A DNA stretch of 64,000 nucleotides from NCBI RefSeq assembly GCF_016065055.1, contig NZ_CP065856.1, forward strand, positions 2,045,836 to 2,109,835, read 5' to 3'. Origin of the DNA: Halosimplex litoreum (GTDB lineage: Archaea > Halobacteriota > Halobacteria > Halobacteriales > Haloarculaceae). Below are positions 1 through 42,112 of the stretch, in pieces (position 1 is the first letter of the stretch; the number at the start of each line of letters is the position of its first letter). The notes beneath the pieces were generated by a model. The model searched no databases. It saw only the letters and a program-made list of their open reading frames with translations, and was not told the origin of the DNA. The position numbers and the translations under genes are program-made.

Positions 1-306
1 CCCGTCGGGGATCGACAGGTCGTCGGCGACCGCCGCGGACCGCTCGACTGCGTAGCGATACCCCGCGTCGGTGTGGCGGCGGTCGTTGTTGAGCCGCGCG
101 AGGTTGTAGCCGAACGTCACGTCGTACACCCCCCGCTCCTCGAACAGTTCCCGGGCCAGCCGGTGGACCGCGAGGTGTTCGCGGCCGTCGAGCACGTCGT
201 GACCCTCGAGAAAGTCGCCGGGCGCCGGCGCGTGTTCCGGAACGAACTCGTCGTAGGCGTCGAAGGTGTCGTCGCTCCCGCCGAACGGCGACGGAACGTT
301 GACCAT
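1..306 (-). CDS. Partial hypothetical protein (N-terminal part)
   Basis: The reading frame starts with an ATG at the minus-strand end and stays open through the window edge, so 102 N-terminal codons are visible and the C-terminus is missing. The protein is acidic, as expected for a haloarchaeon, and begins MVNVPSPFGG. It has no recognisable catalytic motif or membrane segment. It lies downstream of and co-directional with the membrane protein gene at 358-822, about 50 bp away, so the two may be co-transcribed. I do not recognise the family. Confidence 0.6.
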   Translation of the reverse strand, partial: MVNVPSPFGGSDDTFDAYDEFVPEHAPAPGDFLEGHDVLDGREHLAVHRLARELFEERGVYDVTFGYNLARLNNDRRHTDAGYRYAVERSAAVADDLSIPDG

Positions 307-357
307 GTTCCGGCTTGGGTCGCCGCTCCGCTATGCGTCGTCCCGAACCGGTTCGGC

Positions 358-822
358 TCACCCGGTGGGGTCGGCCCGTCGCCCGCGCCCGGTCCGCCTC
401 CCCAGCCAGTCGCCGGCCGCCGCACCGAGGACGGCGACTAGCACCGAGAGCGCCGCGCCGAGCGCGACGACGACCGGCGCCGCGAGGACGGCGACGACGG
501 CGGCGAAACTCGCGGGACTGGTCGCGACGGTGACCGCCGCATTCGCGAGATACACGACGACGACGCCGATCGACCCGGCCAGGCCGACCCGCGTACCGAC
601 CGCTCGCGGCCCCGCTCGGCGGTCACCGTAGTAGTACCCGGCTGCGACGGCAGCTACCACCAGCGCCAGCCCCGAAACGGTGCCGCCGGCGACGACCGTC
701 GGGTCCCCGACGCCGTCCCAGGAGGCGGCGACCGTGAACGGCACGGACGCGAGGCCCGCCAGCGTCGCCGGTCGCCACCGCTCGTCGAACGCCGTCAAGA
801 GTATCCCTCGAATCGCCGTCAT
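358..822 (-). CDS. Small multi-pass membrane protein, DUF5518-like
   Basis: This 154-residue protein has a short cytoplasmic N-terminus, a WRPATLAGLASVPFT segment and about four hydrophobic stretches (roughly residues 20-35, 43-63, 76-98 and 104-135), with a short basic C-tail. The N-terminal motif and overall layout match my memory of the haloarchaeal DUF5518 family, whose function is unknown. A TATA-like agtatact at 852-859 on the minus strand lies about 33 bp upstream of the ATG, fitting a short or absent leader. It is followed by the partial gene at the window edge. Confidence 0.75.
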   Translation of the reverse strand: MTAIRGILLTAFDERWRPATLAGLASVPFTVAASWDGVGDPTVVAGGTVSGLALVVAAVAAGYYYGDRRAGPRAVGTRVGLAGSIGVVVVYLANAAVTVATSPASFAAVVAVLAAPVVVALGAALSVLVAVLGAAAGDWLGRRTGRGRRADPTG

Positions 823-933
823 CGAGCGACTGTACGCGGCCGCTGCGGAAAAGTATACTGTGCTGTCAAGTAGTCCGCTCCACCGACGGCGACGCCGCGC
901 GGGCGGCTCCTGTCTCTCGATCGGGGGTCACCG

Positions 934-1284: not shown

Positions 1285-1698
1285 ATGCAGACGGTGACGG
1301 TTTCGCGACGGCTCGACGCCTCGCCGGAGCGGGTGCGCGCCGCGATGGACGACCTGGAGGCGTTCATGCTCGCCGCAGGGTTCACCGAGGTGGCCCTCGA
1401 CGGCGAGACGATGCATCTGGAGAACCAGGTGGGGCTCGCGACGGTGACCCTCGACCTGCGACTGGTCGACGACGAGTCGGACCTCGCCTACGAGCAGGCC
1501 GACGGCTTCTTCGAGACCATGGACACCGTCTACCACGTCGAACCCGTCGACGGCGCCACCGAGGTCACAGCGACGACCGACTTCGAACTCGACGTTGCCC
1601 TCGTCGGACAGATCCTCGACGCCACGGTGATCAAACGCCAGCGACGGCACGAACTCGAATCGCAGTTCGACTGGCTGGAAGCCGAGGTCGCGGGGTAG
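1285..1698 (+). CDS. SRPBCC (START-like) family protein
   Basis: A 137-residue protein with the classic SRPBCC beginning, a beta strand with a VSRRLDASPERV motif, followed by helix and sheet and ending in a long C-terminal helix (ILDATVIKRQRRHELESQFDWLE). The family forms a helix-grip fold with a hydrophobic cavity for lipids, polyketides or other ligands. The ligand here cannot be told. Length is normal for a single domain. The start at 1285 is the first ATG that fits the fold. It points towards tiaS, with which it is convergent. Confidence 0.75.
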   Translation: MQTVTVSRRLDASPERVRAAMDDLEAFMLAAGFTEVALDGETMHLENQVGLATVTLDLRLVDDESDLAYEQADGFFETMDTVYHVEPVDGATEVTATTDFELDVALVGQILDATVIKRQRRHELESQFDWLEAEVAG

Positions 1699-1744
1699 GC
1701 CACCCGGTCGCCAGCGAGCGGTGTCGCGGCGTCGCGAACCGGAG

Positions 1745-3016
1745 CTACCGCTCGGGATGGACGGGTGCGTCGAATCCGCCGCGGACCAGCGGCTTCGCGA
1801 CGTGTCTGCGGGCGCAGGGCGGCACCTCGTACCAGCCCAGTTCCAGTTCCCGTTCGACGGGCACCTCGACCTTCCCGTCGGCGCTCGTCTCGCAGTCCCG
1901 ACAGCGGTAGCCCTGGTCGGCGCCCGCCGACCCCATCGAGCGACCGCACTCGGGACACTCCGGATTGGTCGGTTCGGTCCGCACGAGCTCCCTGACGGCG
2001 AACTTCTCCAGTTTCAGCGTCCCGTCGGACACCTCGCCGCAGACGGTCACCCGGTCGCCGGGCCGCAGCGCCCGCACGCGGTCGCGGAATCGCTTGGTCG
2101 GCTCGAAGGCGGCGATCTCGGCGTCCTCGCCGTCGGCGCTCCGGAGGGTAGCGAACACGTGGCCGCCCTCCCGGGTCTCGGGCTCGGTGACGACCTCGCC
2201 GTCGACGCGGTAGGCCCGGCCCTCGTCGGCGTCGGCGAATCCGTCGGCGTCCCGGAGGTGGGCGTCGGTCCCCTGGTTGGTGACGAACAGCGCGCGGCTC
2301 GCGACCGCTTCGCCGTCGATCGCGTCGGCGACCCGGCGGACGGTCTCGGAGTCGTCGCCGCGGATCCCGTAGAGGATGGGGCAGGGGGTGCGTGGGACAC
2401 AGACGGGGTAGCCCTCCCCCCGGTCCACGGTGTCCCAGGCGTCGGGGGAGGCCGCGTCGGCAGCGGCGAAGACGGACTCGCGGTCGACCTCCCGGTCGGT
2501 CCCCCAGCGGTCGCGCTCGCGGTAGGAGATACACTCGTAGCTCCAGTCGTCGAACGCCCGCCACGCGCCGACGGCGGCCAGCGCGCCGATGCGGCCGCGG
2601 CCGTTGCCGGCGTAGGCGGTCTGGTAGCCACACTCGGCGGCGAGGTCGACCGCGTCGTCGACGTCGTGGTAGTCCCGAACGGCCGCCCGCGCGAACGCCG
2701 CCACTTCCTCGGGAACCCGTTCGGGATCGCCCGGTGCGACGACGACGCCCGGGTTCGTCCGCGGATCCGCCGTCTCGGCCAAATCGAGGTGCTCGCGTGC
2801 GAGCGCGAGCGCGCGATCGGCGCCGAGGCCGGTGTGGACGGCGAGCGCGGCGTTGCCGCGGGTCTTGTGCTCGACACCCGGATTCAGCCGCACGAGCACC
2901 CGTCGGTCGACGCTCGCCCCCGCCGCCTCGATGCGCTCTGCGAGGCTGGCGGCGACGTAGGTGGTACACATCCCGCGTTCGCGGGAATCCGTGTCGTCGA
3001 GCCCGATGACGGTCAC
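1745..3016 (-). CDS. tiaS: tRNA(Ile2) 2-agmatinylcytidine synthetase TiaS
   Basis: This 423-residue protein begins MTVIGLDDTDSRERGMCTTY, the signature of TiaS. The enzyme joins agmatine to C34 of tRNA-Ile(CAU) using ATP, so that AUA is read as isoleucine and not AUG. Visible parts are the N-terminal DDTD domain, an OB-fold stretch near residue 325 (PGDRVTVCGEVSDGTLKLE) and a C-terminal zinc ribbon with CPECG and CRDC. Length is normal for the family. A strong AT-rich block (attatatatc near 3061-3070) lies in the upstream spacer and can serve as its TATA region. Confidence 0.95.
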   Translation of the reverse strand: MTVIGLDDTDSRERGMCTTYVAASLAERIEAAGASVDRRVLVRLNPGVEHKTRGNAALAVHTGLGADRALALAREHLDLAETADPRTNPGVVVAPGDPERVPEEVAAFARAAVRDYHDVDDAVDLAAECGYQTAYAGNGRGRIGALAAVGAWRAFDDWSYECISYRERDRWGTDREVDRESVFAAADAASPDAWDTVDRGEGYPVCVPRTPCPILYGIRGDDSETVRRVADAIDGEAVASRALFVTNQGTDAHLRDADGFADADEGRAYRVDGEVVTEPETREGGHVFATLRSADGEDAEIAAFEPTKRFRDRVRALRPGDRVTVCGEVSDGTLKLEKFAVRELVRTEPTNPECPECGRSMGSAGADQGYRCRDCETSADGKVEVPVERELELGWYEVPPCARRHVAKPLVRGGFDAPVHPER

Positions 3017-39605: not shown

Positions 39606-39777
39606 GGTTGGGACACCAACGTTAACATACACCGAGTAGGGTGAAAAAGCCCCGGGCTCGTGGGCCCCGCGGCGTGCATCGCGCTCGCTTCGCTCGCGTG
39701 CGCGCTGGGCGACAGCCACAGTCGGGACCGGTCACGGCGCGAACTGGGATGCGTGCGATGACGGCAACCCTAATCGT

Positions 39778-40926
39778 CTACTCGAGTGGGTCGTTGAGTA
39801 CGTCGAAGATATCGACCGCCTTGAACTCCTGATATCGTTCCTTTCCCGTGACCTCTTCGAGCACATTCTGGTCGACGAGTTCTGCAATCGCGTTCCTGGC
39901 CGATTGCTCAGACATCTCCAGAACCTCGGCTGCCTCTGGGACCGTGAGATACGGCTGCTCGAAAAGCCGCAACGCGAGTCTGTCGGCCGCGGTCTTTCCG
40001 TGCCCGTACTGTTGTTCGTAGGTCCGACGGAGGTCCTGCAGCCGTTCGGTTCGCTCCACGGCTTCGCTGGCCTGCGCCCGGATACCTTCGACGAAGAACT
40101 CTAGCCAGGGTTCCCAGTCACCGCGCTCACTGACCGCCCGCATTCGCTTCGCGTACTCGACTTTGTGCTTGTTGAAGTACGCACTCGGATACAAGTACGG
40201 TCTGGAAAGGAAGCCGTTCTGGATCAACTGCAGCGTTATCACGATACGGCCCAGACGGCCGTTCCCGTCGGCGAACGGGTGTATCGTCTCGAACTGGTAG
40301 TGGACGATACCGATGTTGACAAGATCGTGATGCTCGCTCTCGGACTGAATGAACGTCTCGAGGTTCTCCATCAGATCGTCGATGTGGGCCGGAGCTGGTG
40401 GAATGAACGGTTCGATACCCGCGTCCGGTGAGGGGATATGTGTCGGACTTGCCCGAAACTCCCCGAGCGGCTCGGCCTCACCGCGGACATCTTCGAGGAG
40501 TCCCGAATGCAGTCGTTTCAGTAACTCCACGGGTATCTCCTCCGTCTCTCCGACTTGCTCAGCGCCCTTTCGAACGGCTCGCTCGTAGTTTAGCGCCTCT
40601 TGAATGTCCTTCTCGACCGTCGAGCGTGACCCGACCTCCGAAGTCCGGAACACGTCCTCGAGCGTGAGTTGACCGCCCTCAATGAGCGTCGATTCAACCG
40701 CTTCTCTACGTACGAGTGTCGTGTACAGAAGCGGGTTGGTCGGCGACTCACGACTGATCCCATCGAGCCGTCCCAACTGGAATATCGTCTCCTGCAACAC
40801 GTCCCTGAATCCCTCGTCGAATTCGAAGTTGGCTTCCGGTGGGAGTGGATCCGGACGATAGTACGACCGACGGCCATAGGGAACATACTTGCCGGGCGCC
40901 CGGTCTGGGAGTGTCGGTGTCTCCAT
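39778..40926 (-). CDS. Fic-domain AMP transferase with HTH
   Basis: 382 residues. The Fic motif HPFADGNGRLGR near residue 202 is complete, including the catalytic histidine. An inhibitory-helix motif STLIEG near residue 75 puts it in the class II group, which keeps itself off through an N-terminal helix. The C-terminal 60 residues form a winged helix (LTVPEAAEVLEMSEQSARNAIAEL). Such proteins add AMP to a target protein. I chose ATG 40926 (METPTLPD); an ATG 39 bases upstream (40965) is also in frame. The start lies in a palindrome. Confidence 0.9.
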   Translation of the reverse strand: METPTLPDRAPGKYVPYGRRSYYRPDPLPPEANFEFDEGFRDVLQETIFQLGRLDGISRESPTNPLLYTTLVRREAVESTLIEGGQLTLEDVFRTSEVGSRSTVEKDIQEALNYERAVRKGAEQVGETEEIPVELLKRLHSGLLEDVRGEAEPLGEFRASPTHIPSPDAGIEPFIPPAPAHIDDLMENLETFIQSESEHHDLVNIGIVHYQFETIHPFADGNGRLGRIVITLQLIQNGFLSRPYLYPSAYFNKHKVEYAKRMRAVSERGDWEPWLEFFVEGIRAQASEAVERTERLQDLRRTYEQQYGHGKTAADRLALRLFEQPYLTVPEAAEVLEMSEQSARNAIAELVDQNVLEEVTGKERYQEFKAVDIFDVLNDPLE

Positions 40927-40962
40927 TTTGCTTAGCGCCTCGTTATCGGCGCTAAGCAAAAT
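40925..40962. promoter_or_regulatory. Perfect 15-bp-arm palindrome over the fic start
   Basis: ATTTTGCTTAGCGCC (40925-40939) and GGCGCTAAGCAAAAT (40948-40962) are exact inverted repeats with an 8-bp spacer. The left arm covers the fic start codon. The HTH at the C-terminus of the Fic protein, or another regulator, could bind it; the symmetric layout fits autorepression. Bases are AT-rich compared with the flanks. Confidence 0.7.
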
Positions 40963-41035
40963 CATTTATGAATGTGTTGTTCTTAAAACGAGAATCTGAA
41001 CCTGTTGTATATATTTGCATCGTTTTTGGACGGCA

Positions 41036-41046
41036 GCTAAGCAAAA
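41036..41046 (+). promoter_or_regulatory. Third copy of the GCTAAGCAAAA half-site
   Basis: GCTAAGCAAAA repeats the core of both palindrome arms, 74 bp beyond the right arm and about 77 bp before the ornithine cyclodeaminase ATG. A tatatatt stretch (41008-41015) lies about 27 bp before it. Confidence 0.6.
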
Positions 41047-41122
41047 CGGCGACCCGACCGGACCCCGTGGCTAGTCGGGCCTTGCACACCGATTGAAGTG
41101 AACTCGGGCGCATAACTCGGGC

Positions 41123-42112
41123 ATGCAGACGTTACTGTTGGATCCCGACGCCGTCGAGGAAGCCGCGGAGATGTCTGCGATCGTGTCGGCGGTCGAAGAC
41201 GCCTTCGTCGCCGACGCACGCGGTGACACGCAGATGCCCGCCAAGTCCTACATCGACCTGCCCCAGTACAACGGCGACTTCCGGTCGATGCCGGCGTATC
41301 TCGACGCCGGCGAGTGGGACGCCGCGGCGGTCAAGTGGGTCAACGTCCACCCGGACAACCCCGACGACCACGACCTCCCGACGGTGATGGGCACCGTCGT
41401 CTACTCCGACCCCGAGACGGCCTTCCCGCTGGCGCTGCTCGACGGGACGACGATCACCCGCAAGCGGACCGGCGCCGCCGCGGCCGTCGCCACGAATCAC
41501 CTCGCCGTCGAGCACGCCCGGACGATGGGGGTCGTCGGCGCGGGCGTCCAGTCGTACGCCCAGCTCGAAGCGATCGCGACCGTTCGGCCGATCGAGGCGG
41601 TCGTCGTCGCCGACCGCGACGAGGCGAAGGTCGCCGAGTTCGTCGACGCGTTCGACGACCGCTTCGACGTGCGGGGCGGGACCGTCGAGGAGGCCGCCCA
41701 GTGTGACGTGCTCTCGACGGTGACGCCGGTCGAGGAGCCGATCGTCGACAGCGTCGGCGACCACACTCACGTCAACGCCATCGGCGCCGACGCCGCCGGG
41801 AAACACGAGATCGCCGACGAGGTGCTGCTCGACTCTCTGCTGGTTATCGACGACTACGAGCAGTGTACCCACTCCGGGGAGATCAACGTCCCCTGGAGCG
41901 AGGGGGTCCTCTCCGACGACGACGTCCACGGCGAACTCGGCGAGGTGATCGTCGGCGAGAAATCCGGGCGGACGCCCGAGACCGGCGTGACGGTGTTCGA
42001 CTCGACCGGCCTGGCCGTCCAGGACGTGGCAGCCAGCCACGTCGTCTACGAGTACGCGACCGAACACGACGTGGGCGAGCGCGTCTCGCTGGTCGACACC
42101 GACGTGCTCTGA
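41123..42112 (+). CDS. Ornithine cyclodeaminase/archaeal alanine dehydrogenase family
   Basis: 329 residues. The Rossmann domain has the motif MGVVGAGVQSYAQLEA near residue 134. The N-terminal part has QMPAKSYIDLP and the lysine in AAVKWVNVHPDNP near 72, where the family has its catalytic lysine. The family includes ornithine cyclodeaminase, archaeal alanine dehydrogenase and related imine reductases; which reaction is carried out cannot be told. It is divergent from fic and shares its spacer, including one extra operator-like half-site. Confidence 0.88.
   Translation: MQTLLLDPDAVEEAAEMSAIVSAVEDAFVADARGDTQMPAKSYIDLPQYNGDFRSMPAYLDAGEWDAAAVKWVNVHPDNPDDHDLPTVMGTVVYSDPETAFPLALLDGTTITRKRTGAAAAVATNHLAVEHARTMGVVGAGVQSYAQLEAIATVRPIEAVVVADRDEAKVAEFVDAFDDRFDVRGGTVEEAAQCDVLSTVTPVEEPIVDSVGDHTHVNAIGADAAGKHEIADEVLLDSLLVIDDYEQCTHSGEINVPWSEGVLSDDDVHGELGEVIVGEKSGRTPETGVTVFDSTGLAVQDVAASHVVYEYATEHDVGERVSLVDTDVL

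Follow-up and report, generated by a model that had tools for sequence, protein, structure and literature searches.

The locus studied here raises the question of what acts on a perfect palindrome across the start codon of an archaeal fic gene, and whether a further copy of its half-site, located between fic and the divergent ornithine cyclodeaminase gene ocd, places both genes under one regulator. Fic enzymes can attach AMP to other proteins, and SoFic-type proteins have been reported as abortive-infection toxins; to our knowledge, little is known about how a single-gene toxin is silenced. We analysed a stretch of 64 kb of the genome of Halosimplex litoreum, called the window below.

A palindrome at the start of a SoFic-type fic gene

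The gene at the centre of the locus is:
39778..40926, minus strand: fic, SoFic-type Fic protein of 382 aa (Pfam, PADLOC, AF2 and structure match)

Its product contains a Fic_N domain (Pfam 2.3e-18), a Fic domain (Pfam 1.3e-17) and a C-terminal winged helix with a recognition helix around MSEQSARNAIAEL. The complete Fic motif HPFx[D/E]GNGRxxR is present as HPFADGNGRLGR, and the inhibitory motif (S/T)xxxE(G/N), typical of class II Fic proteins, occurs N-terminally as STLIEG (residues 79-84), with E83 invariant in 69 sequences. The PADLOC SoFic model matched residues 21-378 (2.2e-99), whereas the NCBIfam SoFic equivalog NF046030 gave 156 bits, below its cut-off of 550 bits, so the protein is a relative of SoFic and not SoFic itself. 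In the AF2 model (pLDDT 90.7), residues 6-382 superpose on SoFic of Shewanella oneidensis (3zcn; Z 40.2, 355 residues), and the predicted fold, including the winged helix, is common to the full-length SoFic structures (PDB 3eqx, 3zcn, 3zec) at an identity of only 26%. We assign the product, on these matches and the predicted structure, to the class II SoFic-type Fic proteins with a winged helix and regard it as a putative AMP transferase. CbFic2 of Coxiella burnetii (PMC10628234, PDB 8cil) is likewise a class II Fic with a C-terminal winged helix but differs by an N-terminal DUF4172 domain; its winged helix binds DNA, as measured with random sequences, and this stimulates AMPylation (PMC10628234). 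The start codon of fic agrees with that of the orthologues, and the 3' neighbour is a universal stress protein gene, in contrast to Sofic of E. coli with its AS1-like small antitoxin (PMC12249575).

The initial annotation had described two 15-bp arms over the fic start and a recurrence of their 11-bp core at 41036-41046, and we could confirm both. The arms (40925-40939 and 40948-40962) are complementary at 15 of 15 positions around an 8-nt loop, the near arm runs into the ATG at 40926 on the minus strand, taking in its A and T, and an exact further copy of GCTAAGCAAAA stands at 41036-41046. This is the longest perfect inverted repeat of the 64 kb (gap up to 20), compared with 13 bp at most in dinucleotide shuffles (n=12). 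The whole 4.16-Mb genome contains three mismatch-free copies of the 11-mer, all at the fic locus, and five with up to one mismatch allowed, versus 28 for a reversed-pattern control.

Outside the window, the same genome holds a second SoFic-type fic gene (G000:C1:2251144-2252322, locus L150; 42% identical), the upstream region of which is free of TTTTGCTTAGC sites. A third Fic-domain gene (G000:C1:528175-528411, L361) encodes a short protein of the Fic/Doc kind (162 aa; HPFVDANKR).

An array of half-sites at fixed distances from fic

Comparison with orthologues resolves the palindrome and the third copy into parts of one array:
40926..40936, minus strand: half-site D, GCTAAGCAAAATG, fic -10..0, overlapping the start codon
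40951..40961, minus strand: half-site C, TTTTGCTTAGC, fic -35..-25, inverted relative to D
40977..40987, minus strand: position of half-site B, fic -61..-51, degenerate in this genome
41008..41013, minus strand: TATA-like element TATATA, fic about -85, midway from A to B (inspection of aligned upstream regions)
41036..41046, minus strand: half-site A, TTTTGCTTAGC, fic -120..-110, the third half-site of the initial annotation

Before the orthologues the layout is fixed to the fic start, with A at about -120, B at about -60, C at about -35 and D at about -10; A and C point one way, B and D the opposite way. The spacers in the window are N14 for C/D and N48 for A/B. Every orthologue examined has half-site A, at about -119 to -122, B is recognisable in most of them as CTAACCAAAA or CTAACTCAAA, and columns -35 and -34 of C are invariant in 17 orthologue regions, whereas D keeps its position, is more diverged and is poorly kept in several. 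The orthologues are also AT-rich between A and B, at the place of the TATA-like element, which may be the fic promoter. The middle bases of the motif vary by lineage, TTTTGCTTAGC here and TTTTGGTTAGC, TTTGGGTTAGC or TTTGAGTTAGC elsewhere.

The orthologues sharing the array come from several families of the order and have 57-64% Fic identity. Such close orthologues are few and scattered, in 18 of 392 genomes of the order at E 1e-140, our own included; a protein match at E 0.001 or better was found in 78 of 146 genomes of the family. The initial annotation had suggested looking for the same palindrome before fic homologues and took its absence before close orthologues as evidence against the proposal. 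The array is present there, with layout and half-sites kept, but the perfect 15-bp form is special to this genome, the half-sites of the orthologues having diverged.

Half-sites within one locus tend to change together. For A and B, the likeness within loci was 8.53 of 11 positions versus 7.81 between loci, a value reached in 2 of 5000 permutations, and that of B and D was reached in none of 5000; A-C and B-C were weaker (365/5000 and 604/5000), and the relatedness of the loci inflates this permutation test throughout. In another haloarchaeon (L287), two SoFic-type fic genes (7-912, minus strand, and 1495-2640, plus strand; 63% and 40% identity) stand divergent side by side, so that the array there lies between two fic genes.

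A probable self-operator

We consider it probable, from the sequence comparison and by analogy, that the palindrome, along with the third site, forms the operator array of fic itself, bound by a Fic dimer that represses fic. The initial annotation had envisaged that a Fic protein with its own winged helix acts on an operator of its own gene, and this part of it is well supported by the conserved layout and by the precedent of CccR from Yersinia pseudotuberculosis. CccR is a dimer that was shown experimentally to repress its own promoter via the palindrome AGATAATCAT-N26-ATGATAATCT, which has 10-bp half-sites and an unusually wide spacer (PMC9755527). Both systems combine a Fic domain and a C-terminal DNA-binding domain with a promoter region that carries inverted half-sites (PMC9755527). 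They differ in that CccR is bacterial, T6SS-secreted and served by a single pair, whereas the window fic is archaeal and has up to four half-sites, one of which runs into the start codon, with spacers of N14 and N48 instead of N26; the window array is a predicted operator, that of CccR an experimentally shown one.

Most likely, a Fic dimer would bind inverted half-site pairs via its C-terminal winged helices. Filling of C/D would cover the start codon and leader, filling of A/B would place protein on both sides of the TATA-like element, and the two together would block transcription of fic. By such negative feedback, a potentially toxic AMP transferase would be kept low. The degenerate half-site B in this genome, the poor conservation of D in several orthologues and the departure from the N26 spacing of CccR count against the self-operator. 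In the whole genome, the 36-bp palindrome formed by the half-site pair is a single copy at up to three mismatches, so there is no sign of a regulon elsewhere in it. By its family name, this fic may have a role in anti-phage defence.

Since CccR has been characterised experimentally, the principle of a self-repressing Fic protein is already known. What our comparisons would add is the archaeal array, together with evidence that SoFic-type genes of bacteria and viral contigs have their own, differing repeats. A literature search, with subscription papers mostly outside its reach, returned no archaeal Fic self-operator; the closest findings were CccR and a proposal by Kinch et al. that fic expression may be regulated by HTH domains (PMC2686095).

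Repeats before SoFic-type genes of bacteria and viral contigs

We examined 49 non-redundant upstream regions of non-haloarchaeal SoFic-type genes, mostly bacterial. These contained 479 inverted hits (shuffles, 53), and their direct repeats at 40/41 bp numbered 25 (shuffles, 0.5), with peaks at 40 bp (12 regions) and 41 bp (13 regions; 0.25 expected each) and a further peak at 51 bp (7). Control regions 500-640 bp upstream or inside fic were near background. Among haloarchaeal homologues of <55% identity the peaks lay at 50 bp (9) and 51 bp (5). For a held-out set of 50 previously unused regions of viral contigs, the offsets 40, 41, 50 and 51 were chosen beforehand and gave 19 hits, compared with at most 2 in shuffles and 1 in control regions. 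Fic/Doc proteins without a winged helix (119-217 aa) had a smaller repeat excess and no 50/51-bp peak, a control that is imperfect because such genes often lie in operons. Peaks at 31, 41, 51 and 62 suggest helical phasing.

With slightly more confidence than doubt, we extend the self-operator to the family: SoFic-type genes of archaea, bacteria and viral contigs would as a rule carry their own lineage-specific array of alternating half-sites, with direct repeats of 31/41/51 bp (steps of one helical turn) that would let Fic dimers assemble as neighbours along one DNA face and silence their own toxin or defence module, which consists of one gene. Were the arrays indeed self-operators, the role of the winged helix would be a general one, each gene's upstream motif would offer a candidate binding site ready for use, and the CccR finding would extend to archaea and hold as a family rule.

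The array motifs differ between fic lineages and take varied forms before related bacterial and viral-contig genes. Motifs like AAAGTAAAAT or TTATTTCAAT recur in the arrays of distant bacterial SoFic-type genes (L077, L083, L095, L099, L110 and L111, and L079, L100, L102, L230 and L274); such motif groups, seen by eye, are only leads because co-variation with the protein fails among remote pairs. A partial Mantel test of recognition helix against motif was weak (r 0.05, 43/1000), co-variation was clear only where two proteins shared at least 45% core identity, there was no signal among remote protein pairs, and we rejected a recognition-helix code on these grounds.

Co-variation that is clear only among related proteins does not prove Fic to be the binder, and its absence among remote ones speaks for a separate regulator, encoded elsewhere and other than Fic, that binds the array. 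We regard such a regulator as unlikely, because the array accompanies fic into neighbourhoods and genomes that are unrelated, its motifs varying by fic lineage, and because Fic has its own winged helix and a precedent in CccR. By analogy with CccR, Fic itself would be the protein that binds the array, and its binding would repress.

The third half-site, ocd and a proposed insertion of fic

The initial annotation had placed 41036-41046 close to the transcription start of ocd and proposed one regulator for both genes. Three further features bear on these claims:
41123..42112, plus strand: ocd, ornithine cyclodeaminase / mu-crystallin family (Pfam 8.7e-85), a neighbour outside the fic unit
41094..41100, plus strand: TGAAGTG, corresponding to a TAAGTG-like box that relatives have about 22 nt ahead of the ocd start codon
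39648..41104, no strand: segment without a counterpart in sister species (blastn of the window versus L178-L183)

The gene ocd is present in 141 of 146 genomes of the family, and the TAAGTG-like box is kept about 22 nt before its ATG in six sister species; TGAAGTG, with its leaderless-type spacing, is the putative promoter of ocd itself. The third half-site lies 77-87 nt before the ocd ATG and about 50 bp upstream of that box, which does not agree with a position near the ocd transcription start.

Common control of fic and ocd by one regulator through a shared operator would fit the location of the third half-site between the two genes, but we judge it very improbable. The site occupies the conserved -120 place, and ocd was upstream of fic in none of 23 orthologue loci (about 1.5 kb each; 16 loci, L008-L023, and 7 others). 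Moreover, six congeneric species (L178-L183) have ocd close to the stress-protein gene with no fic between them, and the ocd upstream regions of these species contain no array half-site closer than 3 mismatches. In addition, the promoter-like box of ocd lies beyond the third site. Control of ocd by the third site was therefore rejected. The array accompanies fic across genomes and not the neighbouring genes, and by sequence comparison the third half-site is the -120 element A of the fic array. In 28 ocd upstream regions we counted 12 direct and 11 inverted hits versus 6.7 and 8.7 in simple shuffles.

The blastn matches of the flanks to L178-L183 stop at 39630-39647 and restart at 41105-41120, and the ends of the segment are placed only to within these match ends. 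Since the segment is absent from the sister species, the simplest history would be an insertion of fic plus its array between two old neighbours.

Could the palindrome work at the RNA level instead, folding into a hairpin that masks the start codon and controls translation? The C/D hairpin is very stable in this genome (-25.7 kcal/mol, z -8), but most orthologues show nothing unusual (z mostly -1.3 to +2.2, two near -2.2 and -2.6), and A and B share the motif yet stand outside such a hairpin. As a strong hairpin is special to this genome, RNA control is unsupported as a conserved function; we rejected the hairpin as a conserved feature and give translation control scant credence. That the repeats are mobile-element ends or a recombination site would suit the lack of fic and array at this place in sister species but is the least credible reading, as no motif copy occurs 3' of fic within the window and the sites keep fixed distances to the start codon.

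Regarding the place itself, the distance from the stress-protein gene to ocd in L179, L180 and L181 exceeds that in L178, L182 and L183 by several hundred bases, all six being fic-free, and this place may thus collect insertions.
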